Positions 3,192 through 18,664 of a stretch of 28,503 bases of DNA are shown here, piece by piece. Where the stretch lies: positions 1-28,503 of the IMG/VR virus record IMGVR_UViG_3300032092_004397; one strand, 5' to 3'. Below the pieces are notes generated by a model that did not search any database, was not told the DNA's origin, and saw nothing but the letters and a program-made list of their open reading frames with translations. Origin of the DNA: a virus. Both the position numbers and the translations under genes were made by a program. How positions within the stretch are numbered: position 1 is the stretch's first letter; each line of letters begins with the position of its first letter.

Positions 3192-3806
3192 TCAGTGTAG
3201 CCGTTTTGTGCGGCTGCGCTCAAAGGCCTCGAGAGCAGCTTTGCGCTTCTGGGCGATGGTGCGGACATTTTCGATTATGCGCTCTGCGCCGAAATCGACC
3301 GAATTGAAGGGGCCGCCATACCAGCGGACGAGGTCCTTCCTCTGAGGATGGTGAGGTTTTGCCATGGCCTCGATGAAGTCCATGAAGCCGGGCGGGCCGC
3401 CCACATCTTCTGGTGGGGCAGTGCGCTCACCGTCGACAAAGAGAGGATAGTCGGTGCCGGGTGTCCCATCGATGACCTCTTCCACGATGATGCGATGCTG
3501 CCAGTCATCTCCAAAATCGTAGGTATAGCGCAGTTCTGTAATGCCACGATCCATAAGAGTGCCGAGGCGCATGCTCTTTGCTTGGAAAATCTTGCGGCCC
3601 CAGGCTGCGCCGGTGGGATCGGTTTCTCCATAAACAGCTTCGCCCACTTTGAACTGGTAGAGGTGGCAGTTCTCCCAAGGCATGACTGCCTGAATGATCT
3701 CGTGCAGCGCACGGAGGTTTGTTGTCAGACTGACGTCAACCCGCCGCCAGATGCGTGGCGCAATGTGCTCGAGTTCAATCCTGATGCGGGCGATCTTTAG
3801 GGGCAT
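3192..3806 (-). CDS. plasmid pRiA4b ORF-3 family protein
   Basis: The 204-aa protein belongs to the pRiA4b ORF-3-like family, known from plasmids, mobile elements and chromosomes; its function is unestablished. Family features are an N-terminal IELEHIAPRIWRRVDV strand, LRALHEIIQAVMPWENCHLY, the YDFGDDWQHRI motif, and a C-terminal CGGP-like DVGGPPGF segment. Translation starts at ATG 3804-3806, because the conserved N-terminus begins there; the frame extends upstream to 4184 only by antisense overlap with the next two phage genes. It lies on the minus strand between terminase and the gpW-like gene. Its stop is 10 nt from the terminase stop, so it looks like an inserted cargo gene. Confidence 0.85.
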   Translation of the reverse strand: MPLKIARIRIELEHIAPRIWRRVDVSLTTNLRALHEIIQAVMPWENCHLYQFKVGEAVYGETDPTGAAWGRKIFQAKSMRLGTLMDRGITELRYTYDFGDDWQHRIIVEEVIDGTPGTDYPLFVDGERTAPPEDVGGPPGFMDFIEAMAKPHHPQRKDLVRWYGGPFNSVDFGAERIIENVRTIAQKRKAALEAFERSRTKRLH

Positions 3807-3854
3807 GATGCGACCTGGCTGTGGCTTTGGTATGAAACCTAGAAGGTGATGGCG

Positions 3855-4070
3855 ATGGCCACAATCACAGACCTTCGCACCCGCCGAGAAACGCTGGCGG
3901 CACAACGCGCCTCGGGCGTGGCCCGCGTCAGCTATGACGGCAAGACGGTGGACTACCGGTCTTTGGCAGAGATCGACCGGGCCATTGAGGCTTTGGACCG
4001 TGAGATCGCGATGGCCGAAGGGCGTCGGATCGTGAGGCAGGTCCGCGTGACGACTGCCAAGGGGCTCTGA
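3855..4070 (+). CDS. gpW-like head-tail joining protein
   Basis: This small protein of 71 aa sits between terminase and portal, exactly where lambda-type phages encode gpW, which plugs the portal and helps tail attachment. It has a heptad-like C-terminal helix (SLAEIDRAIEALDREIAMAE) and a short strand region (ARVSYDGKTVDYRS), as in the gpW fold. I chose ATG 3855 because AGAAGG ends eight bases upstream; the in-frame GTG 3846 and ATG 3849 are too close to that site. Lambda gpW is 68 aa. Confidence 0.8.
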   Translation: MATITDLRTRRETLAAQRASGVARVSYDGKTVDYRSLAEIDRAIEALDREIAMAEGRRIVRQVRVTTAKGL

Positions 4071-4075
4071 CACAA

Positions 4076-5584
4076 ATGGGGATGTTTGACCTCTTTCGCC
4101 GCCCCAAGCCGGGCGGCACAGAAGCCATGCGCGCGCGGCTTGAAGGCGCGATGGCCAAGCGCCGCTTGCGCGGCTGGAACCCACCGCTCGAGAACATCAA
4201 CGCCCTGGTCGCTTCTGGTGGACCCAAACTGCTGGCGCGATCGCGCGAACTGGTGGTGACCAACGGTTATGCGGCGAACGCCTGCGAGGCCTTTGCGGCC
4301 AACCTTGTTGGGGACGGTATCAAGCCGTCATCGCTCATCACGGATGCGGCGCTGCGCGATCAGGTGCAAAAACTCTGGCTGGCATGGACAGACGAGGCGG
4401 ACGCAGATGGGCTGACCGATTTCTACGGCCTGCAAGCCATGGTCGCACGCGAGATGTTTGTGGCGGGCGAGTGCTTCGTGCGCTTGCGGCCCCGTCGGGC
4501 GGAGGATGAGCTCCTTGTGCCTCTGCAGTTGCAGCTTCTCCAATCCGAGATGCTGCCCTTTGAGAAAACGGAGACGGACCCGAACGGCAACCCCATCCGC
4601 TGTGGGGTTGAGTTCGATCTGATCGGACGGCGGGTGGCTTATCACTTCCGCCGCCGTCACCCGGGCGACAGCACAGACCAGCGGATGGCGGTGCCCGAGA
4701 CGGTGCGCGTGCCGGCTGAGGAGGTGCTGCACATCTACCGCCCCATCGATGCGGGCCAGATCCGAGGGTTGCCGCATGTGGCACCGGCCATGGTACGGCT
4801 CTTCCTCCTAGACCAGTACGATGATGCAGAGCTTGACCGGAAAAAGACCGCGGCGATGTTCGCGGGCTTTATAACGAAGACCGCACCCGAGGACCCGATG
4901 ATGGGGGAGGGGGCAGCTGATCTTGATGGGGCAGCCATTGCGAGCCTCGAGCCCGGAACCATGCAGGTGCTGCTGCCCGGAGAGGATGTGAAGTTCTCAA
5001 GCCCCGCTGATGTTGGTGGTGGCTATGAGGCGTTCCAATACCGCACGCTGCTGGCGGTCTCAGCCTCGCTGGGTCTGCCCTATCACCTCGTCACCGGCGA
5101 TGTCCGGCAGGCGAATTATTCGAGCTTGCGGGCAGAACTCGTCGAGTTCCGCCGCCGCATCGGCCAGTTGCAGCACGGGGTCATGGCCCATCAGTTGTGC
5201 CGCCCAATCTGGCGGCGTTGGTTGGAAACGGCTGTGCTCTCGGGTGCGCTGGACGCAGACCCCGCTGACGCGCGCGCGGTGCAATGGATCCCGCCCCGGT
5301 GGGATTGGGTCGACCCGTTGAAGGATATCCAAGCGCAGGTGCTGGCGATGGAGGCTGGGATCACCTCGCGACGCAAGGTTGTCGAGGGTACCGGCTACGA
5401 TATCGAAGAGGTCGATCGTGAGAACGCCGCGGATGCCAAGCGCGCATCGGATCTGGGGCTGACCTACCGCGCCAGCCCGGGCGAGACGCAGGGTGCACGG
5501 GCCACGCCAATCCAAGAGAAAAGCCCCAATTCTAATGACGGACCGTCCGACTTTAGCCGGGAAAACAACCCCGCAGAGGAGTAA
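4076..5584 (+). CDS. phage portal protein (lambda gpB family)
   Basis: This 502-aa protein would form the dodecameric ring at one capsid vertex through which DNA enters and to which the tail is joined. Length and position match lambda gpB (533 aa). Recognisable portal-type segments are LVVTNGYAANACEAFAAN, MVAREMFVAGECFVRLR, the AEEVLHIYRPIDAGQIRGLP region, and LPYHLVTGDVRQANYSSLRA followed by a long helix. The start overlaps nothing and lies six bases after the gpW-like stop; AAGGGG is about eleven bases upstream. The Pro/Ser/Asn-rich last 30 or so residues are probably disordered. The stop codon is directly followed by the protease gene. Confidence 0.93.
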   Translation: MGMFDLFRRPKPGGTEAMRARLEGAMAKRRLRGWNPPLENINALVASGGPKLLARSRELVVTNGYAANACEAFAANLVGDGIKPSSLITDAALRDQVQKLWLAWTDEADADGLTDFYGLQAMVAREMFVAGECFVRLRPRRAEDELLVPLQLQLLQSEMLPFEKTETDPNGNPIRCGVEFDLIGRRVAYHFRRRHPGDSTDQRMAVPETVRVPAEEVLHIYRPIDAGQIRGLPHVAPAMVRLFLLDQYDDAELDRKKTAAMFAGFITKTAPEDPMMGEGAADLDGAAIASLEPGTMQVLLPGEDVKFSSPADVGGGYEAFQYRTLLAVSASLGLPYHLVTGDVRQANYSSLRAELVEFRRRIGQLQHGVMAHQLCRPIWRRWLETAVLSGALDADPADARAVQWIPPRWDWVDPLKDIQAQVLAMEAGITSRRKVVEGTGYDIEEVDRENAADAKRASDLGLTYRASPGETQGARATPIQEKSPNSNDGPSDFSRENNPAEE

Positions 5585-8953: not shown

Positions 8954-8976
8954 TGCGGGCTTCCACGTCACTTTGA
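8950..8976 (+). pseudogene. possible 5' stub of a phage gene cut by the yhaV insertion
   Basis: An ATGATG overlaps the upstream stop codon as ATGA, the usual coupling arrangement in this operon. It opens an eight-codon frame (MMRASTSL) that ends inside the antisense 3' end of yhaV. The intact tail terminator-like gene on the other side of the cassette begins MPTPRE, only loosely similar. It could be the orphaned start of that gene, but similarity alone does not prove it. Confidence 0.3.
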
Positions 8977-9468
8977 GCTCATCAAATCGGCAAGTTGGCC
9001 GCCAGACTCTTGTACGCTTGCAAGCAGCGTGGCCCAGTTGCCAGGTGGATTTCCTTCGTCGAGCATCCCTTTGAAGACCCGATATGCATCCGTGCGGCTG
9101 TCATAGGCGCGTAACGTTGTATCGTCATTCACCCATGCAAGAATGATGACGCGGCTTTCGGCATGGAACCGGAAGAACAGCCGGTATTGCTGAAAGAACT
9201 TTGCGCGGAACCAGTGCCTGTGATCTTCGCCCAAGGTGTTGCCCTGCCGGAACTTCGGGTCGGTAGGGTCTGAGGGGATTTCTTCAAAGATCAGCTTGTT
9301 GATCGCGGCAAGCCGCTTCGTTGCGTTCTTGCTGCGATAGCCGGTCGGATTGGCAGCTTTGAGAGCCGCAACCTTAACGGCAAGCTCCTCCACCTGGGCA
9401 AGAAACAAAGGGTGCGCAAACAAAGTCCAACCGTTCACGGCCAGTTGCATAGAGGAACCGTCCGTCAT
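8968..9468 (-). CDS. yhaV: YhaV family toxin (type II TA)
   Basis: This 166-aa protein is a ribonuclease toxin of the RelE superfamily, normally held by PrlF. Family features are NGWTLFAHPLFLAQVEEL at the N-terminus, ATKRLAAINKLIFEEIPSDP, and the core QGNTLGEDHRHWFRAKFF followed by QYRLFFRF and IILAWVNDD. The last part (YRVFKGMLDEGNPPGNW) is also YhaV-like. It is full length. Its ATG (9466-9468) overlaps the stop of the antitoxin gene, so the pair is coupled. It is coded against the phage late operon, and its stop lies 14 nt from the stop of the upstream phage gene. Confidence 0.93.
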   Translation of the reverse strand: MTDGSSMQLAVNGWTLFAHPLFLAQVEELAVKVAALKAANPTGYRSKNATKRLAAINKLIFEEIPSDPTDPKFRQGNTLGEDHRHWFRAKFFQQYRLFFRFHAESRVIILAWVNDDTTLRAYDSRTDAYRVFKGMLDEGNPPGNWATLLASVQESGGQLADLMSSK

Positions 9469-9791
9469 TCATCGTCAGGCGACAAGGCCGCATCCAGATC
9501 GAGGTCTACACCCTCGACCAACTCAGAGAGTCTGGCGCGGAGCGGAGCGCCGAGGGCCTGAATATGCCCGGGGTTTTGGGCAATGTCCTGTGCAAGAAAG
9601 TTAAGGAAGGCACCAATAGCCGGATCCTCAACGGCGTCCGAGGCACGGCTGAGCAGCACATCACCTTCTGGCAGGATGGTATAGGAGATGCGATCTCGCT
9701 TTTTGAGGCCGAGCGCCTTGCGAACGACCCCTGGCATTGTCGTCTGATATTTGTCGGTCAGCGTGGATTCGACCTTGAGTTCAGCAAACAT
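9465..9791 (-). CDS. prlF: PrlF family antitoxin (type II TA)
   Basis: This 108-aa protein is the partner of YhaV. Residues about 3-50 form an AbrB/MazE-type swapped-hairpin DNA-binding domain (LKVESTLTDKYQTTMPGVVR, then ALGLKKRDRISYTI and GDVLLSRA). The C-terminal half is the toxin-binding tail (AIGAFLNFLAQDIAQNPGHI ... LVEGVDLDLD). ATG 9791 is chosen because GGGAG lies about six bases upstream; a GTG at 9806 would include that site. The antitoxin is expected to repress its own promoter, and an inverted repeat is present just upstream. Confidence 0.92.
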   Translation of the reverse strand: MFAELKVESTLTDKYQTTMPGVVRKALGLKKRDRISYTILPEGDVLLSRASDAVEDPAIGAFLNFLAQDIAQNPGHIQALGAPLRARLSELVEGVDLDLDAALSPDDE

Positions 9792-9817
9792 GTGATTCTC
9801 CCGCACGGCACCAGTCC

Positions 9818-9903: not shown

Positions 9904-10323
9904 ATGCCAACCCCTCGCGAAACCATCCTCGCCGCGCTCCTGGCGCGTCTGTCAGCGCTGCCCGCCACAACCTTGCGCGGGGAGGTGCTGCCTGAGCGTA
10001 TTCCGCCTGCGGGCCTCTTAATCCTGCGCGACGGCAACCCCGGCGAGCCGGAGGTCACGCTGTCGCCCCTGCGCTATCATTACCGACATCGGGTAGAAAT
10101 CGAGGCTGTAGTTCAGGGAAGTGACCGCGACAGGGCTTTTGACACCCTTTGCGCCAGCATCGGCGCAGCGCTCGCGGCCGACCGCACGTTGGGCGGTCTC
10201 TGCGACTGGGTTGAAGCGGAAGCGCCGCAACCCGTCGATCTGCCGATGGAGGGGGCAGCGCAGGCGAAGGCGGCGGTCCTCGCCATCGTGCTCCATTATG
10301 CGCTGGCTGATCCGCTGGGCTGA
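9904..10323 (+). CDS. tail terminator-like protein (gpU position)
   Basis: This 139-aa protein lies between the gpZ-like and tail tube genes, as tail terminators do. Such proteins cap the tail tube when it reaches full length. Visible segments are ETILAALLARLSALPATTL, then ILRDGNPGEPEVTLSPLRYH, the strand HRVEIEAVVQG, and a helix DRAFDTLCASIGAALAADRT. Residues PQPVDLPMEGAAQAKAAVLA precede the final strand; this pattern is common in gpU-type proteins. I chose ATG 9904; a GTG at 9871 is possible. The ribosome site is poor, which fits a gene that lost its original coupled start to the upstream cassette. Its last 28 bases overlap the 3' end of the convergent bactofilin gene. Confidence 0.68.
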   Translation: MPTPRETILAALLARLSALPATTLRGEVLPERIPPAGLLILRDGNPGEPEVTLSPLRYHYRHRVEIEAVVQGSDRDRAFDTLCASIGAALAADRTLGGLCDWVEAEAPQPVDLPMEGAAQAKAAVLAIVLHYALADPLG

Positions 10324-10700
10324 GCGGCCAATTCAGCAGGGCCCGGCTCGGCAGAAGCCACCTCAACCGGCGCCATCTTGCGGATCTCCGCTTCAAGGAT
10401 CGCCCCGGCTTCAACTGCGAGCGTCTTATACTGCAGCGATCCGGTCATCTGACCTGTCGTTCCGACCGTCACATCCTCGATAAAGGCAGAGCCTTGAACA
10501 GACCCATAGATCTTGGCCTCAAGGGCTTCAACGTCCCCCATCACCTCAGCGCCTTGCTGCAAGGTTAGAGTAGCGGCTCTGATATTGCCTGTGACTTTGG
10601 CCTGAACCACCAAGGTCCCGGCATGGCGGATATCTCCGGTCACTTCGAGATCGGCCGCCAGAAACGAAGGTTTTGCCGAATGCCTTGCTGCGCTGTCCAT
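10296..10700 (-). CDS. bactofilin family polymer-forming protein
   Basis: This 134-aa protein has the right-handed beta-helix repeats of bactofilins (DUF583/CcmA). Successive short turns of Gly-hydrophobic pattern run from LEVTGDIRHAGTLVVQAKV through VTGNIRAATLTLQQGAEV, GDVEALEAKIYGSVQGSAFI and GSLQYKTLAVEAGAILEAEI. Short, disordered N- and C-terminal tails flank it, as usual. Bactofilins self-assemble into nucleotide-free filaments linked to cell shape and polarity. The start has AGGA six bases upstream. It is coded against the tail operon, and its 3' end runs 28 nt into the tail terminator-like gene. A structural phage role is possible, but a cargo gene is more likely. Confidence 0.85.
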   Translation of the reverse strand: MDSAARHSAKPSFLAADLEVTGDIRHAGTLVVQAKVTGNIRAATLTLQQGAEVMGDVEALEAKIYGSVQGSAFIEDVTVGTTGQMTGSLQYKTLAVEAGAILEAEIRKMAPVEVASAEPGPAELAAQPSGSASA

Positions 10701-10878: not shown

Positions 10879-11319
10879 TCAGCAGGTGCCGTAAAAGCCG
10901 CCAGAGTAGCGGCAATATTCTGTGGCAACGCCCATGGAGATCATGGCTTCGGCGATATCTTGGCCATTTGGCAAGAAACACTGGCCGACGAGGCGCTGGT
11001 AACGATCGATGTCGATGAGGACGCAGGTCAGAGGTTGGCCGTCGATCAAGCCGCGCATCGCCTTGGTGGCAGCAGAACCGCCGCGCTCATCACGTTCTGG
11101 CGCATCAAGGCCCCAGACGCGGATGGCAGGGACCACGCCACTCAGATGAAACGTGTCTCCATCGGTAACGCGGGTCACGGTTCCGGAAAACTCTTCGGCG
11201 GTTGCCGAGGTCGGTGCGAAGGCTGCGGCAAGGCACATCGTCCATACTGCCGCGAAAGTTACGCCCCGCGAGACACCCGTGTCGGCCAAGTCAGCCATAT
11301 ATCTGGACAATCTGTTCAT
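10879..11319 (-). CDS. secreted thermonuclease-like protein (SNase family)
   Basis: This 146-aa protein starts at ATG 11317-11319 with a hydrophobic signal segment (FAAVWTMCLAAAFA) ending in a likely AxA cleavage site before EEF. The mature part is a staphylococcal nuclease fold: VTRVTDGDTFHL, the active-site strand IRVWGLDAPERDERGG (Arg and Glu of the IR...APE motif), and DRYQRLVGQCFLPNGQDIAE with the second conserved Arg. The C-terminus (EYCRYSGGFYGTC) has two cysteines. It would act in the periplasm or outside, cutting DNA or RNA with calcium. It is minus-strand cargo between tail terminator-like and tail tube genes. An upstream in-frame start at 11364 would add 15 residues ahead of the signal and is less likely. 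Confidence 0.85.
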   Translation of the reverse strand: MNRLSRYMADLADTGVSRGVTFAAVWTMCLAAAFAPTSATAEEFSGTVTRVTDGDTFHLSGVVPAIRVWGLDAPERDERGGSAATKAMRGLIDGQPLTCVLIDIDRYQRLVGQCFLPNGQDIAEAMISMGVATEYCRYSGGFYGTC

Positions 11320-11390
11320 TCTGCACCCCCGGCCCAGGAAGCTGGCAGGCTGCGCTGTGAACACAATCTATCTTAAGAGGGAGGAAGAGG

Positions 11391-12329
11391 ATGGCACGAG
11401 CCCATGGGGCGCGGGCGCAGATGGCGCTTGCGTTTGAGACCACCTATGGCACCGCCCCCACAGCGGGATTCCGGGTGGTGCCTTTCGCCAGCACGACGCT
11501 CGGCTCCGAGCAACCGCTGATTGCCTCGGAGCTTTTGGGCCAAGGGCGTGACCCGCTGGCCCCGATCAAAGACGCGGTGACAGCAGATGGCGATGTCGTG
11601 GTTCCACTTGATGTTGAGAACTTCGGCCTTTGGCTGAAGGCCGCCTTTGGGGCCCCCACAACCACCGGCACCACGCCGAAGACCCATACGTTCCAGTCGG
11701 GGGGCTGGGCTCTGCCAAGCATGGCCATCGAGACGGGTATGCCGGAAGTGCCGCGCTATGCGATGTACACGGGCTGCGTTTGCGATCAGCTCAGTTGGCA
11801 GATGGCGCGGTCAGGACTGCTGACCGCCTCCGCCCGCCTGGTGGCCCAGGGCGAAACCGTTGCAGCCGCCACGGCCGCTGGCACGCCCACCGCGCTTTCG
11901 CTGCAGCGCTTTGGCCACTTCAATGGGTCGATCAGCCGCAACGGGGTGCCGCTTGGCAATGTCATCTCGGCTGAGGTGACTTATTCCAACGGCCTCGACC
12001 GGATCGAGACCATCCGACCGGATGGCAAGATCGAAGGGGTTGATCCCGGCATGGCGGCGCTGACCGGCAAGATCGAGGCCCGCTTTGCCGACACGACGCT
12101 GATCACTCAGGCCATGGACGGTACGCCTTGCGAATTGGTCTTCGGCTGGAGCCTTGGGGCCAATGCCAGCTTCAGCTTCACGGCGCATGCCGTCTATCTG
12201 CCGCGGCCCCGCATCGAGATCCCGGGTCCGCAGGGGATCCAGGCCACGTTCGACTGGCAGGCTGCCAAGGCGGCAAGCCCCGCCCGCCTGTGCACCGCCA
12301 CCCTCGTCAACACTGTCATCTCCTATTGA
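11391..12329 (+). CDS. major tail tube protein
   Basis: This 312-aa protein is the repeating subunit of the tail tube. It begins ARAQMALAFETTYGTAP and has a middle domain and a second domain with SLQRFGHFNGSISRNG and VISAEVTYSNGLDRIETIRP. The segment LTGKIEARFADTTLI followed by a strand-rich C-terminus resembles phage tail tube proteins of the two-domain type. A strong ribosome site (GGAGGAAGAGG) directly precedes the start, as expected for an abundant protein. It is the first plus-strand gene after the bactofilin-nuclease cargo. Confidence 0.88.
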   Translation: MARAHGARAQMALAFETTYGTAPTAGFRVVPFASTTLGSEQPLIASELLGQGRDPLAPIKDAVTADGDVVVPLDVENFGLWLKAAFGAPTTTGTTPKTHTFQSGGWALPSMAIETGMPEVPRYAMYTGCVCDQLSWQMARSGLLTASARLVAQGETVAAATAAGTPTALSLQRFGHFNGSISRNGVPLGNVISAEVTYSNGLDRIETIRPDGKIEGVDPGMAALTGKIEARFADTTLITQAMDGTPCELVFGWSLGANASFSFTAHAVYLPRPRIEIPGPQGIQATFDWQAAKAASPARLCTATLVNTVISY

Positions 12330-12345: not shown

Positions 12346-12783
12346 ATGCTGACCCTTGATCTCTGCAGTGTACCGTTCTGGTGTGACCTTCTTCCCGGCC
12401 TGCGGGTCAAACTGCGGCCGTTGACCACGGCGCTGATGGTCGCCAGCCGCGCGGATCCCGCAATTGCGGCCCTCACCGAAGGGACAGCGCCTGAAGAGGC
12501 CGCCCTTGCCATGGCCAAGGCGCTGGCGCGGCGCGCGATCCTCGACTGGGACGGCGTTGGCGATGTCTCTGGCGAGGTCTTGCCGGTCAGCCCCGAGGCG
12601 ATCGACGCACTTCTTGAGCTTTGGCCGGTCTTTGAGGCCTTCCAGACCCGCTATGTCGCCAAGGGCCTGCTCTTGGATGCCGAAAAAAACGTCTCATCGC
12701 CCTTGCCGATTGGGAGTTCGGCGGGGGCGGCGGCTATTGCGCCGCCTGCGGATCCGTCTGTCCCGAGTGCCCCGCACGGCTGA
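12346..12783 (+). CDS. tail assembly chaperone, short form (gpG-like)
   Basis: This 145-aa protein follows the tail tube gene and precedes the tape measure gene, the position of lambda gpG. Tail assembly chaperones coat the tape measure and recruit tube subunits. It contains VKLRPLTTALMVASRADPAI, then EEAALAMAKALARRAILDWD and SPEAIDALLELWPVFEAFQT, a helical array typical of this group, and ends in a low-complexity Ala/Pro/Ser tail read only when no frameshift occurs. ATG 12346 is chosen because the frame upstream lies inside the tail tube gene; GAGAGGA lies about eleven bases away. A slippery heptamer at 12684-12690 diverts some ribosomes into the longer form. Confidence 0.85.
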   Translation: MLTLDLCSVPFWCDLLPGLRVKLRPLTTALMVASRADPAIAALTEGTAPEEAALAMAKALARRAILDWDGVGDVSGEVLPVSPEAIDALLELWPVFEAFQTRYVAKGLLLDAEKNVSSPLPIGSSAGAAAIAPPADPSVPSAPHG

Positions 12784-13013
12784 ACGCGCCGCAGACTTGG
12801 GAGGGCGCGCAAATCTGGGACCTCGTTCAGCGTCTTGGCGGGCAATTGCGCCTCATCACCGGTGCGGTGATCGGTTGGGATATGGGGGCCGCACTGGCGC
12901 TCGGGGCGGCGCTTGGCATCCCGGCGCTTGCGGTTGCGGAGCTCATGCCGCCCATCGAGGCTGTGATGGTGCGCAAGATCAATGAAGCGATGCAGGCTGA
13001 CGCTGGCGGCTAA
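12346..13013 (+). CDS. tail assembly chaperone, -1 frameshift fusion (gpG-T-like)
   Basis: This is the predicted 222-aa frameshift product. Residues 1-115 are shared with the short form. Then 107 residues come from the -1 frame, which stays open from the slip at 12690 to TAA 13011-13013. The extension reads RLIALADWEFGGGGGY, then four cysteines spaced C-x2-C-x3-C-x2-C, then TWEGAQIWDLVQRLGGQLR, and ends in a long helix (AVMVRKINEAMQ). The -1 frame has no ATG before 12882, so a separately started gene of this length is unlikely. In lambda the equivalent fusion gpGT is made at a few percent and binds the tail tube and tape measure proteins. Confidence 0.85.
12684..12690 (+). promoter_or_regulatory. 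programmed -1 ribosomal frameshift site
   Basis: The heptamer A AAA AAC is in the exact register needed for tandem slippage: zero-frame codons are GAA (12682-12684), AAA and AAC. After slipping back one base, reading continues CGT CTC ATC into a 107-codon open frame. A GC-rich hairpin, GGCGGC 12729-12734 with GCCGCC 12741-12746, lies about 38 bases downstream, farther than the usual stimulator distance. Confidence 0.85.
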
Positions 13014-13033: not shown

Positions 13034-13324
13034 TTAGGCCGCTCGAAGGGGCTGGATTCCTGTGAGGTCTACCTTCTCGCGGGCGCGGGCCAAATCCCAG
13101 GACCGTTGCAGGTTCATCCAGTATTCTGGCGTGGTGCCAAAGAAGGTTGCAAGACGCATGGCCGTGTCGGCAGACAAGGTCGTCTCGCCCTTGACCAGCC
13201 GTTCGATCCGGGTGCGCGGCACAGCCAGGCGCTTTGCTAGGGCTGGCGCACTCATCGCCAGCGGCTCCAGATAGAGCAACGAGAGCACTTCACCAGGATG
13301 GGAAGGATTATGCAGCAGGCTCAT
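13034..13324 (-). CDS. higA: HigA family antitoxin (XRE-type)
   Basis: This 96-aa protein begins with the HigA signature HNPSHPGEVLSLLYLEPL. It carries a helix-turn-helix (ALAKRLAVPRTRIERLVKGE, about residues 28-47) and the typical TTLSADTAMRLATFFGTTPE followed by YWMNLQRSWDL. It neutralises the HigB ribonuclease and represses the shared promoter. It lies 11 bases downstream of higB, in the toxin-first order characteristic of HigBA. Its stop is 20 nt from the stop of the tail assembly chaperone, to which it is convergent. Confidence 0.93.
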   Translation of the reverse strand: MSLLHNPSHPGEVLSLLYLEPLAMSAPALAKRLAVPRTRIERLVKGETTLSADTAMRLATFFGTTPEYWMNLQRSWDLARAREKVDLTGIQPLRAA

Positions 13325-13335
13325 CGTGTCTCCTT

Positions 13336-13617
13336 TCAGTGATAATCTACAAGTTCAACTTCGGCTGGACCTTGATCTGTCCAGACAAAACAAATGCGCC
13401 ACTGGCCGTTGATGCGGACCGAATGCTGGCCGATCCTGTCGCCAACCAAGGCTTCCAGATGGTTGCCCGGCGGAAAGCGCAAGTCTTCCAAAACAACCGC
13501 CGCATCCAACGCAGAAAGCATAGCACGCGTTCGCCGTACCAGATCCGCCGGAAAGCCTTTGCCGAAACGGCCAGAGAGCGCCTGCTCAGTCAGTTTGCCG
13601 CGAATGCTGATGATCAT
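13336..13617 (-). CDS. higB: HigB toxin (RelE/ParE superfamily)
   Basis: This 93-aa mRNA interferase cuts mRNA at the ribosome. Family features are LTEQALSGRFGKGFP, RRTRAMLSALDAAVVLEDLR, FPPGNHLEALVGDR and the C-terminal strands QHSVRINGQWRICFVW and AEVELVDYH. I chose ATG 13617 (MIISIRG), which matches the family N-terminus; an ATG at 13626 would add three residues and sits against the operator. It is the first gene of the pair and is transcribed against the phage operon. Confidence 0.92.
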   Translation of the reverse strand: MIISIRGKLTEQALSGRFGKGFPADLVRRTRAMLSALDAAVVLEDLRFPPGNHLEALVGDRIGQHSVRINGQWRICFVWTDQGPAEVELVDYH

Positions 13618-13626
13618 GTCAAGCAT

Positions 13627-13643
13627 GTATCATGCCGTGATAC
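13627..13643 (-). promoter_or_regulatory. higBA operator (inverted repeat)
   Basis: A perfect inverted repeat, GTATCA (13627-13632) and TGATAC (13638-13643) around five bases, lies immediately upstream of the higB start. HigA-type repressors bind such short palindromes over their own promoter. On the minus strand a possible -35 (TTGATT, revcomp of 13647-13652) lies just upstream. The arms are certain; the function is inferred. Confidence 0.55.
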
Positions 13644-13644
13644 G

Positions 13645-13711
13645 AAAATCAAGGAGCCCGAGCCATGTCACAAAAAAGGTCTCCGTCCGGCTTGTCGCCG
13701 TGGAGGCTGTC
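13645..13711 (+). pseudogene. 5' stub of the tape measure gene
   Basis: This stretch repeats the ribosome site and first codons of the tape measure gene at 14353-14413. By hand alignment 53 of 65 columns match. The shared parts include AAAATCAAGGA, an ATG at 13665, and TCTCCGTCCG. In the tape measure frame both encode VSVRLVAV, with mostly synonymous differences. The stub has lost one base after the start, so the frame from ATG 13665 is shifted. It then runs straight into the 3' end of vapC (stop 13710-13712). It is best read as a leftover of an older tape measure start, cut off by the VapBC cassette. Confidence 0.8.
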
Positions 13712-14090
13712 AGCCCTTGATCTTCTCGATCAGGGTGACCCCCGGCAGGCCCTCGAAATGCTTGTCGCAGGTCAGCAGTTCCGCTCCTTTGGCGCGGGCG
13801 GTCGCAAACATGATGGCATCGGCCGTTGCAAGCTTGTGGTTGCGGCAGGCCTCTGCCGCCGCGATAGCGATTTCTGTATCGAGCGGCACCACTTGGCAGA
13901 CTTGGGTAAAGGCAATGACCTGATCTGCCTTGTCCTCGCCCGCTTCCCGCGTCAGCCACTTCGCCAGTTCCAGCTGAACCATGCTGGGCACAAGCCAGTC
14001 GGACTGTTCAGGCAGATGCGCCGCCAGTTTGTCGCCGGTCGGCGACCCGATCAGCCATTCGATCCAGGCGGATGTATCGACGAGGATCAT
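13710..14090 (-). CDS. vapC: VapC toxin, PIN domain (first VapBC pair)
   Basis: This 126-aa PIN-domain ribonuclease has the expected four acidic residues: Asp5 in MILVDTSAWIEWL, Glu41 in SMVQLELAKW, Asp91 in LATADAIMFATA and Asp109 in LLTCDKHF. Toxins of this family typically cut initiator tRNA or rRNA with magnesium. The start overlaps the vapB stop by one base (TGATG on the minus strand). Its stop abuts the truncated tape measure stub. It is full length and apparently intact. Confidence 0.93.
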   Translation of the reverse strand: MILVDTSAWIEWLIGSPTGDKLAAHLPEQSDWLVPSMVQLELAKWLTREAGEDKADQVIAFTQVCQVVPLDTEIAIAAAEACRNHKLATADAIMFATARAKGAELLTCDKHFEGLPGVTLIEKIKG

Positions 14091-14302
14091 CAGAAGCGGT
14101 CCGCTCGATCACGGTAATCGGCGGAAGATGCGCCGCGGGCCAGGCCCTTTAGAGCATCACGTTTGGGAACCGGGACCAGTAAGACGCCAGTGCCCTTCGG
14201 AATGAACGCAAAGGTTAGACCTGCCTCCCAATGCTGGGCGCTGCGGATCGCCTTTGGGATGGAGATTTGGAACTTCGAGGAAAGGGTCGCGGTCTCGGAC
14301 AT
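14090..14302 (-). CDS. vapB: VapB antitoxin, AbrB/MazE type (first pair)
   Basis: This 70-aa protein has the swapped-hairpin domain: ATLSSKFQISIPKAIRSA, then WEAGLTFAFIPKGTGVLLVP. The C-terminal tail DALKGLARGASSADYRDR is the kind that threads into the PIN toxin and ends in a charged arginine segment. ATG 14302 is preferred because AAGG lies nine bases upstream; ATG 14308 is only three bases from it. A palindrome lies about 20 bases upstream and could be its operator. Confidence 0.9.
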   Translation of the reverse strand: MSETATLSSKFQISIPKAIRSAQHWEAGLTFAFIPKGTGVLLVPVPKRDALKGLARGASSADYRDRADRF

Positions 14303-14320
14303 AATCATACGCCTTCATGA

Positions 14321-14373: not shown

Positions 14374-16833
14374 ATGTCAGAAAAACGCGTCTCCGTCCGC
14401 CTGGTCGCTGTCGGCGGCCGGCAGGTGCGGGCCGAGCTTGAAGGGATCGGCGAGGCGGGCGCGCGCGGCTTTGGCCGGCTCTCGTCCGAGATAACGGCGG
14501 CCAATGCGCGGCTCGCGGGTTTTGCCAGCAAGGCGGGGATTGCACTGGCCGCCCTGACCGCAGCCGCCACGGCGGCCGGTGTTGCGATGATCCGCTCGGG
14601 GCTCGAGGTAATCGGCGCGCAGGCGGATATGGCAGCCTCGCTTGGCACGACGGTAGAAAGCCTGCAGGTGCTGACCTGGGCGGGGGAGTTGGCCGGGGTC
14701 TCGCTGGGAGAAATCGAACAGGCGACAAAGAAGCTGACGACGCGGCTTTCCGAGGCGGCGACGGGGTCAGGCACGGCGGTCAAGGCGCTGGCGCGTTTGA
14801 ACCTGACGGCGACGGATCTGCAGGCCTTGCCTTTGGATCAGCGGATTGTCGCCATTCAAGAGGCGCTGAACAGGCTTGTCCCGGAGGCAGAGCGCGCGGC
14901 AGTGGCCTCGGACCTCTTTGGCGACAAGGCAGCCCTGGCCTTCCTGCGGGTCGATCCCGCAACCTTGCGCGAGGCGGCGAAAGATGTGCGCGACTTTGGC
15001 GTGGCGGTCAGTGCCAGTGACGCGGCGCAGATCGAACGAACGGGAGATGCGATTGCCAAGCTGAGCCTGATCTGGCTCGGCCTCACGAACCGGCTGACGG
15101 CGGCGGTTGCGCCTGCCTTGGAAGCGGTAGCCAATACACTTGCCGACATGGCACGCGGCACGGGGCCGCTGGGACAGGCGATCAACGGGATCTTCGACAA
15201 TCTGGGGCGGCTTGCAACCTATGCCAGCATATTCGCCGCGCTGATGGCGGGGCGCTGGGTGGCGGGGCTGGCTGCGGCCGCGCTTTCGGTCAAAAGCCTT
15301 GCGACCGGGCTCGTGGTTTTGCGCGGGGCGCTCATTCGCACCGGCGTCGGCGCTCTGATCGTTGGTGCGGGGGAGCTGGTCTATCAGTTTACCGAGCTTG
15401 TTGGCAAAGTCGGCGGGGTTGGTGCAGCCTTTGGCCTTTTGCGCGATGTAGCGGCGGAGGCGTGGAACCGGTTGGCCCTGGCAGCGACAGGCGCCTGGTC
15501 CCGTGTCGAGGCTGGCTGGGCCGGGGCACAGGCCATGATCTACGAGGGACTGCAATCGGCACTGGCAGCCGTGGTGGGCTGGGGCAATTCTGCCGTGGGC
15601 AGCTTCCAAGGCGCCTTTGATGCGGTGAAGGCGATCTGGGGTGCGTTGCCGCAGGCGATCGGCGATTTTGCCTATCAAGCCGCGAACGGCCTGATCGACG
15701 GCGTCGAGGCAATGCTGAATGCGGTGGTCACCCGCATCAACCGCTTCATCGAAGGCTTGAACGCGGCGCTGGACCTGCTGCCGGATTGGGCCACGGGAGA
15801 GGGCGGCATCAAGATCGGCACACTTGATGCCGTCGATCTTGGCGGCATTGCCAATCCCTTCGCAGGGGCTGCAACGGCCGCGGGCACGGCGGCGGCTGAT
15901 GCCTTCCAGGCGGCGATGGGCAAGACCTATGTGGATGCCCCCGACCTCTTCGGCGGCATGGCAGAGGCAGCGCGCACCCGGGCGGATGGCTATGCCGAGG
16001 CGGCGGGGATGCTGTCGGAGGCGGCATCACAGCCGATGACAGCTTGGGCCGCGCTGAAATCTGCGATCTTCGGCGCGGGTGCGGAGGGTGAGGCGGCTTT
16101 GAACCACGCCTCAGATGCCGCCGACGCGCTGTCGGACGGATTGGACAATGCCGGCAAATCTGCCGGTGAGGCTGGAGGGACTGCGAAGAAGGCGGCGGAG
16201 GAGGCTGCTACCGGCTGGGCGGCGGTCACAAAGTCCTTGGCGGACTATGCCAAGGGCGCGATGGATTGGGGCAAGGGGCTAGGCGAGACGCTGACTTCGG
16301 CCTTCTCCTCGGCCGAGAACGCCTTCCGGCAATTTGTCACCGCTGGCAAGTTCGACTTCAGATCGCTCATCTCCTCGATCTTGGCCGATCTTGCGGTGCT
16401 CTCGTTCAAACGCGCGGTTCTTGGGCCGATTGCGGATGCGCTGTCCTTTGCCTTTGGCGGCGGGAGCTTTCTGGATGGCCTCGTGGCACATAATGGGGCC
16501 GTGGTCGGCTCAACTGGGTCGACCCGATCCGTTCCTGCCTTGGCCTTTGCAGGCGCACCGCGGATGCACGAGGGGGGCTGGGCGGGTCTCAAGCCCGATG
16601 AGGTGCCGGCCATCCTGCAGCGCGGGGAGCGCGTGCTGTCGCGCCGAGAGCTTGCAAGCCAAGGGCGTGCTGGCGGGGCAGTTCCCGGTATCACGGTGAA
16701 CATCGACGCGCGCGGCGCGCAGCTGGGTGTGGCCGAGCAGATCAATGCAAAATTGCGGGCGGCCATCCCGGAGATCGCCCGCATCGCGAAGGAAAGCGTG
16801 GCCGATGGTCGGCGCAGAGGTCAGGGGATTTGA
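14374..16833 (+). CDS. tail tape measure protein
   Basis: This 819-aa protein sets tail length and is ejected ahead of the DNA. The N-terminus (MSEKRVSVRLVAVGGRQVRAEL) starts a strand-helix module. Hydrophobic segments lie near residues 50-72 and 285-320. A long Ala/Gly-rich helical middle follows. The C-terminal region (ITSAFSS-like WGKGLGETLTSAFSSAENAF, then FDFRSLISSILADLAVL) is the lambda gpH C-terminal domain. By the usual rule of about 1.5 angstrom per residue, the tail would be near 120 nm. The start is preceded by AAGGA at suitable distance. Its 5' end is duplicated upstream of the VapBC cassette. The stop overlaps a TTG just ahead of the next gene. Confidence 0.93.
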   Translation: MSEKRVSVRLVAVGGRQVRAELEGIGEAGARGFGRLSSEITAANARLAGFASKAGIALAALTAAATAAGVAMIRSGLEVIGAQADMAASLGTTVESLQVLTWAGELAGVSLGEIEQATKKLTTRLSEAATGSGTAVKALARLNLTATDLQALPLDQRIVAIQEALNRLVPEAERAAVASDLFGDKAALAFLRVDPATLREAAKDVRDFGVAVSASDAAQIERTGDAIAKLSLIWLGLTNRLTAAVAPALEAVANTLADMARGTGPLGQAINGIFDNLGRLATYASIFAALMAGRWVAGLAAAALSVKSLATGLVVLRGALIRTGVGALIVGAGELVYQFTELVGKVGGVGAAFGLLRDVAAEAWNRLALAATGAWSRVEAGWAGAQAMIYEGLQSALAAVVGWGNSAVGSFQGAFDAVKAIWGALPQAIGDFAYQAANGLIDGVEAMLNAVVTRINRFIEGLNAALDLLPDWATGEGGIKIGTLDAVDLGGIANPFAGAATAAGTAAADAFQAAMGKTYVDAPDLFGGMAEAARTRADGYAEAAGMLSEAASQPMTAWAALKSAIFGAGAEGEAALNHASDAADALSDGLDNAGKSAGEAGGTAKKAAEEAATGWAAVTKSLADYAKGAMDWGKGLGETLTSAFSSAENAFRQFVTAGKFDFRSLISSILADLAVLSFKRAVLGPIADALSFAFGGGSFLDGLVAHNGAVVGSTGSTRSVPALAFAGAPRMHEGGWAGLKPDEVPAILQRGERVLSRRELASQGRAGGAVPGITVNIDARGAQLGVAEQINAKLRAAIPEIARIAKESVADGRRRGQGI

Positions 16834-18048: not shown

Positions 18049-18447
18049 TCAGGATTTGAACGGGTTGGTGATTGTAAGCCGCCCCTCGACCAAGAGGCCA
18101 TCCTGCATGTCTTCAGAATAGAGCGTGGTGCATTGATTTTGCAGGGCTGCGGCGACGATCATCGCATCATAAACAGAAAATCCGTAACGCTCGCCAAGGG
18201 CGCGCCCAATCTCATGGGTCGTGGGCGTCAGGGAAACGACAGGGCAAATCTGGCATATGCTGTCGAGGAAAACGCCCGCTTCCTGCCAGCTCATCGCGGC
18301 TTTGCGGATACAGTTGACGAGGGTCTCGTTGAGGACCTGAACGCTGACCATCCCGCCTTGGGCGATGAGGTGTTCGGCCTTCTCGGCCTTTGTGCTCTCA
18401 TCCAGCAAATAGAGGATAACGTTTGTGTCGAAAAAATTAGCGCTCAT
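18049..18447 (-). CDS. vapC: VapC toxin, PIN domain (second VapBC pair)
   Basis: This 132-aa PIN ribonuclease carries Asp7 in FFDTNVILYLLD, Glu41 in VLNETLVNCI, Asp94 in GFSVYDAMIVAAA and Asp113 in YSEDMQDG. It belongs to a different subfamily from the first pair, so the two are not duplicates. ATG 18447 is chosen because the PIN core starts at residue 4; an in-frame start at 18459 would add four residues. It overlaps the vapB stop by 11 bases. Its stop is 24 nt from the stop of the DUF2163-like gene, to which it is convergent. Confidence 0.92.
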   Translation of the reverse strand: MSANFFDTNVILYLLDESTKAEKAEHLIAQGGMVSVQVLNETLVNCIRKAAMSWQEAGVFLDSICQICPVVSLTPTTHEIGRALGERYGFSVYDAMIVAAALQNQCTTLYSEDMQDGLLVEGRLTITNPFKS

Positions 18448-18664
18448 GTGTATCGTCACGGCTTAGACGCGCGCTGGCGGGAAGGCGCCCACGGAAGGGC
18501 CGCAGTGCGGCCAAGACTTCCTCGGGTCGCTGATGACGCGCGAGGGCAATCCCGGCCCCATCGGCATGAATATCAATGTCGTCACCCTCTTTGAGGCCCA
18601 GTTGGCGAACAAGCTCGGCGGGGAGACGGATGGCAAGAGAATTACCCCATTTTGCGACTTGCAT
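18437..18664 (-). CDS. vapB: VapB antitoxin, AbrB/MazE type (second pair)
   Basis: This 75-aa protein has the swapped-hairpin fold in MQVAKWGNSLAIRLPAELVR, then QLGLKEGDDIDIHADGAGIA, followed by a toxin-binding C-terminal tail (EEVLAALRPFRGRLPASARL). It is full length. It represses its own promoter, and a candidate inverted repeat lies upstream. The 11-base overlap with vapC implies coupled translation. Confidence 0.92.
   Translation of the reverse strand: MQVAKWGNSLAIRLPAELVRQLGLKEGDDIDIHADGAGIALARHQRPEEVLAALRPFRGRLPASARLSRDDTHER

Follow-up and report, generated by a model that had tools for sequence, protein, structure and literature searches.

The question raised by this locus is whether a small gene lying between the tail tube and tape measure genes of a virus encodes a single tail protein, or whether some ribosomes change frame near its end to make a longer one. 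The window, i.e. the whole stretch of DNA that was analysed, covers the 28,503 nucleotides of record IMGVR_UViG_3300032092_004397. As read from the window, the zero-frame gene starts at ATG 12346 and stops at TGA 12781-12783, and its codons 113-115 (GAA AAA AAC, 12682-12690) place the heptamer A AAA AAC in the zero-frame register near the 3' end of the gene. The -1 frame then runs for 107 codons without a stop, from 12690 to TAA 13011-13013; in the window sequence it holds no ATG, GTG or TTG between the upstream stop at 12633 and TTG 12846, and no ATG before 12882. The original prediction, which had proposed a frameshift from these elements, had the position and register of the heptamer and all the other coordinates right. 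We consider it very likely (probability about 0.95) that the locus carries a programmed -1 ribosomal frameshift of the lambda gpG/gpGT kind, in a phage of the Rhodobacteraceae type. Its features, all on the plus strand, are the following.

12346-12783 (+), zero-frame gene, gpG-like tail assembly chaperone of 145 aa, residues 1-115 being common to the fusion.
12684-12690 (+), slippery heptamer A AAA AAC, identified by its register in the window and its conservation in relatives.
12691-12697 (+), 7-nt spacer from heptamer to hairpin (computed spacing).
12698-12709 and 12718-12729 (+), arms of a probable stimulatory hairpin of 11-12 bp, with its loop at 12710-12717, suggested by stability and codon choice.
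12690-13013 (+), -1 frame extension, gpT-like, 107 aa (whole fusion 222 aa), recognised by homology, -1 wobble and an AlphaFold model.
12738-12770 (+), CxxC-x3-CxxC motif (C17, C20, C24 and C27 of the extension), recognised by Cys invariance.
12855-13004 (+), part of the extension matching the DUF7697 and phrog_11212 profiles, residues 56-105.
12691-12780 (+), the 30 zero-frame codons that follow the slip, by their substitution pattern probably a by-product under no selection.

Taken by itself, the open -1 frame is weak evidence. In the plus-strand genes of the window, 10.0% of the codon positions are followed by 107 or more codons without a stop in the -1 frame, the +1 frame is likewise open here (173 aa, 12464-12985), and heptamers of the X XXY YYZ type (Y being A or T) stand in register six times in about 5,800 codons of the window, one alone being A AAA AAC. 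Because long open -1 frames are so commonplace here, the case had to be settled by comparison.

The comparison set comprises 256 related loci (257 with the window), taken from phages, viral contigs and species genomes; 255 loci have both parts, a count that takes in the window and some redundant contigs, and 49 representatives make up the non-redundant set. In 254 of these 255 loci the frame of the extension is -1 and a heptamer coincides precisely with the switch, at the first column of the extension (246 AAAAAAC, six GGGAAAC and two AAAAAAA); in L097, the only exception, the site contains Ns. Heptamer conservation, which the original prediction had proposed to check, extends to all 49 non-redundant relatives. 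A tblastn search of phage records found 13 relatives, in which the zero-frame protein is matched up to residue 115 and the extension from residue 1 on, i.e. from base 12690, so that homology switches frame exactly at the heptamer. The GGGAAAC sites change the peptide from E-K-N to E-G-N and retain slipperiness, which argues that slippery DNA, not the peptide, is what is kept. The string GAAAAAAAC occurs in 191 of 198 unique sites; elsewhere in the gene Lys is encoded by AAA in 41 of 126 cases and Glu by GAA in 136 of 383. We regard this conservation as the decisive evidence, and it rules out chance.

The signal is fuller than the original prediction had described, a conserved hairpin being found after the heptamer. 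It begins 7 nt past the heptamer, the usual spacing from heptamer to structure being 5-9 nt (PMC7618472). Across 49 relatives, the 60 nt following the heptamer are the most stable segment around the site (mean -29.3 kcal/mol vs -15 to -25 elsewhere), and 93.6% of the hairpin pair cells in the alignment of relatives are standard. When synonymous codons were resampled, the hairpin gave a mean z of -2.18, with 38 of 49 relatives below -1.64, and eleven control blocks gave -0.6 to +0.4; the hairpin is thus more stable than the protein demands. Individual codons of the extension are strongly biased in favour of pairing in the hairpin: Gly12 is GGG in 36 of 43 sequences vs a 17% background, every one of the 43 sequences with Leu at position 5 uses CTT or CTC (background CTG 50%) and Ala4 is GCC or GCT in 45 of 45 (background GCG 43%). 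Covariation is modest, since four pairs changed on both sides and the structure slid by one column gives an equal count, and RNAalifold alone returns 9 pairs only, with a covariation term of -0.5. The claim for a hairpin therefore leans mainly on codon choice. Among the most distant relatives, a few (L174, L175 and L177) are without this hairpin and L167 forms part of it only; a search for anti-Shine-Dalgarno pairing in 8-nt steps found no convincing conserved stimulator of the Shine-Dalgarno type upstream. Selection on the hairpin as RNA is strongly supported, and this putative element probably acts as a frameshift stimulator. A hairpin for this tail-chaperone gene was not found described in the literature searched, a weak argument for novelty.

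A fusion could also be obtained without any movement of the ribosome if RNA polymerase added or dropped an A in the seven-A run, so that some mRNAs would encode the fusion in frame. A-runs can indeed be slippery for RNA polymerase (PMC3711429), and the window has G-A7-C and its cyanophage relatives A8. However, A8 is also the longest A-run seen, and six loci carry GGGAAAC at the identical place, with no long homopolymer. Furthermore, a polymerase standing at the slip site has yet to transcribe the hairpin and could not be helped by it, so that selection on the hairpin points to the ribosome. The GGGAAAC sites, and a downstream hairpin that has no way of acting on RNA polymerase, strongly favour slippage by the ribosome over slippage during transcription, and we hold the transcriptional explanation to be very improbable.

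Beyond the heptamer, selection follows the -1 frame, as the substitutions indicate. In 122 gapless relatives, each compared with the window, substitutions by phase number 7083/3482/2435 upstream of the slip, with the peak at the zero-frame wobble, and 2110/1203/4224 downstream of the overlap, with the peak at the -1-frame wobble. Within the 90-nt overlap itself (631/730/1452), the -1-frame wobble is highest and the zero-frame wobble lowest. The peak thus moves to the -1 wobble at the slip, so the extension is a real protein. Together with the conservation in 254 of 255 loci, this selection in the -1 frame bears out the lambda gpG/gpGT logic of the original prediction. The 30-codon zero-frame tail displays no sign of selection and probably is an unselected by-product; in 7 of the 49 representatives it is one codon long, the stop lying one codon past the slip.

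Pfam PF24752 (DUF7697) and phrog_11212 imply a different arrangement, in which the extension would be a separate gene with its own start at TTG 12846, GTG 12867 or ATG 12882: both profiles span the C-terminal half only, and a short CDS of its own is annotated there in two cyanophage records. However, the conserved domain begins 52 codons ahead of the first possible start. No start codon is conserved in extension codons 1-45, where any codon is a start in at most 8 of the 49 representatives, so that the second refuting condition named in the original prediction does not apply either; yet these 45 codons hold the four invariant Cys, R1 and W8 and evolve as -1-frame protein. The extension can thus be reached only via a frame change, and a separate gene is a still more remote prospect than transcriptional slippage. 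Rather, since DUF7697 and phrog_11212, both of unknown function, cover only about residues 53-105, their profiles correspond to the C-terminal half of the extension alone, and both families seem to have been assembled from gene calls with a wrong start, the two cyanophage CDS being an instance. Finally, a -1 frame this long opens from 10% of the window codons, which would suit a heptamer arising by chance, or one gene split by an indel or by faulty assembly. This reading is refuted by the 255-locus census, in which frame relation and site recur in independent assemblies and isolates, and its probability is negligible.

What are the products of a ribosomal frameshift at this site? The zero-frame protein matches phrog_313, "Tail assembly chaperone" (E 9.1e-20), and has tblastn matches in Rhodobacter phages that are annotated as tail assembly chaperone; it matched no family in NCBIfam or Pfam. 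The gene and its extension stand between a Phage_tube_2 gene (11391-12329) and a tape measure gene of the lambda type, with Tape_meas_lam_C at 14374-16833. Its AlphaFold model (pLDDT 89) has as best PDB match the HK97 tail chaperone 2ob9, a weak match (E 1.4, Z 4.6) that is consistent with a chaperone and lies below the level that would prove a shared fold. For the extension, the original prediction of a clear domain proved correct: the CxxC-x3-CxxC motif is followed by DUF7697 (E 2.8e-25, 88.4 bits vs a gathering cut-off of 27) and the match to phrog_11212 reaches E 4.9e-20. The four Cys of the motif, invariant in 47 diverse extensions, are likely to bind zinc. The extension model is compact (pLDDT 92.6), and several of its best matches among predicted viral structures are named tape measure chaperone (top Foldseek probability 1.00, E 0.025), the fold matches being weak throughout, with all E above 0.001. 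Searches of the PDB with Foldseek and VIA gave weak unrelated rows only (Z at most 3.1) for the extension, and PDB sequence-profile searches gave nothing convincing for either half.

A working scheme may be proposed. Most ribosomes would translate 12346-12783 into the 145-aa chaperone. In a minority of cases the hairpin at 12698-12729 would probably hold the ribosome while its tRNAs sit on AAA AAC; these ribosomes would move back by one base, read A AAA AAC as AAA AAA and continue in the -1 frame to 13013, yielding the 222-aa fusion. The comparison establishes the signal and its conservation, the switch of frame in the selection on the protein, and that the extension is out of reach unless the frame changes; slippage in the cell and the ratio of short to long product are what we infer from them. 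By analogy with lambda (PMC5009743), the short form, present in abundance, would cover the tape measure by binding through the shared part, and the rare long form would bridge the tape measure to tail-tube subunits via its extension; the link from RNA signal to tail assembly would likewise follow the lambda model.

For alphaproteobacterial prophages, this is a frameshift with very strong support, and DUF7697 and phrog_11212 would be accounted for as the last portion of its product. We also lean, with appreciably less confidence than for the frameshift itself, towards a two-part tuned signal unlike that of lambda (heptamer and conserved 11-12 bp hairpin with a 7-nt spacer) in a large group of mainly alphaproteobacterial phages, its product bearing a zinc-binding T-like domain of which DUF7697 would be the C-terminal half. 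If so, the hairpin would set a chaperone to fusion ratio that differs from lambda's. The natural series A AAA AAC, G GGA AAC and A AAA AAA, with and without hairpin, is well suited to asking how phages tune the short to long ratio.

Several further genes lie on the opposite strand. Two toxin-antitoxin-like pairs (13034-14308, -) separate the frameshift gene from the tape measure gene, and two more stand between structural genes.

8968-9806 (-), YhaV/PrlF toxin-antitoxin pair (E 6e-59 and 6e-36), between structural genes.
10296-10700 and 10879-11364 (-), bactofilin (PF04519, E 2e-18) and staphylococcal-nuclease-like gene (PF00565), just ahead of the tail tube gene.
13034-13626 (-), HigB-like toxin and HTH antitoxin.
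13710-14308 (-), PIN toxin and unclassified AbrB-like small protein.
18049-18664 (-), PIN toxin and MazE-like antitoxin, between structural genes.

Four toxin-antitoxin pairs within one late operon are unusual. Where a tape measure could be recognised (224 relatives), the junction is free of inserts in 151 and occupied in about 70, mostly by a single pair of the HigB or the PIN/AbrB type, six relatives having both; loci with junction inserts include L005-L007, L191-L193 and others. The junction between fusion and tape measure looks like a hotspot for toxin-antitoxin cargo, the HK97 moron gp15 lying at the same place. Phage RcKemmy carries no insert, and there the first 8 nt of the tape measure gene are shared with the end of the -1 extension, the same arrangement as lambda H/T (L001:4350-4357, L258:1043-1050). 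Tape measure translation might thus be coupled to frameshifted ribosomes in RcKemmy, a coupling that the insert of the window would break. A further opposite-strand ORF of 330 aa (3192-4184, -), between the terminase and head-tail genes, presumably resembles plasmid pRiA4b ORF-3 proteins.

How does this signal compare with known systems? The bacterial dnaX frameshift also combines an A-rich heptamer with a downstream hairpin (PMC3711429); it concerns a different gene and has an upstream Shine-Dalgarno-like stimulator, whereas none is clear in the window. HK97 gp13/gp14 is likewise a gene joined by a -1 frameshift, gp13 being the weak fold match (2ob9) to the zero-frame model, and there too an extra gene, gp15, separates the frameshift gene from the tape measure. 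HK97 is, however, absent from the sequence matches in the phage collection; a heptamer near the gene start, considered as a comparison site for the hairpin, was dropped as it is not the real slip site. The Rhodobacter capsulatus phages RcKemmy, RcKvothe and their kin are direct homologues (extension identity 54-56%), in which the frameshift is described as usual (PMC8601537). The joined CDS is already annotated in these Rhodobacter phage records, so the original claim that automatic gene calling would miss the fusion was too strong. They differ from the window by their heptamer, G GGA AAC, and by the lack of a toxin-antitoxin insertion ahead of the tape measure.

Frameshifts in tail-chaperone genes are textbook knowledge, and the frameshift of the window belongs to the already known lambda gpG/gpGT kind. 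In both, the gene lies between the tail tube and tape measure genes, the -1 slip occurs near the end of the G gene at an X XXY YYZ site (G_GGA_AAG in lambda), and the products would be in the window, as they are in lambda, a short chaperone and a rarer fusion. The differences lie in the parts: the window has A AAA AAC as its heptamer and a four-Cys/DUF7697 domain as its extension; lambda has no hairpin, the corresponding stretch folding no better than synonymous versions (z +1.04); and lambda H overlaps the end of T, whereas about 1.36 kb of toxin-antitoxin genes separate fusion and tape measure in the window.
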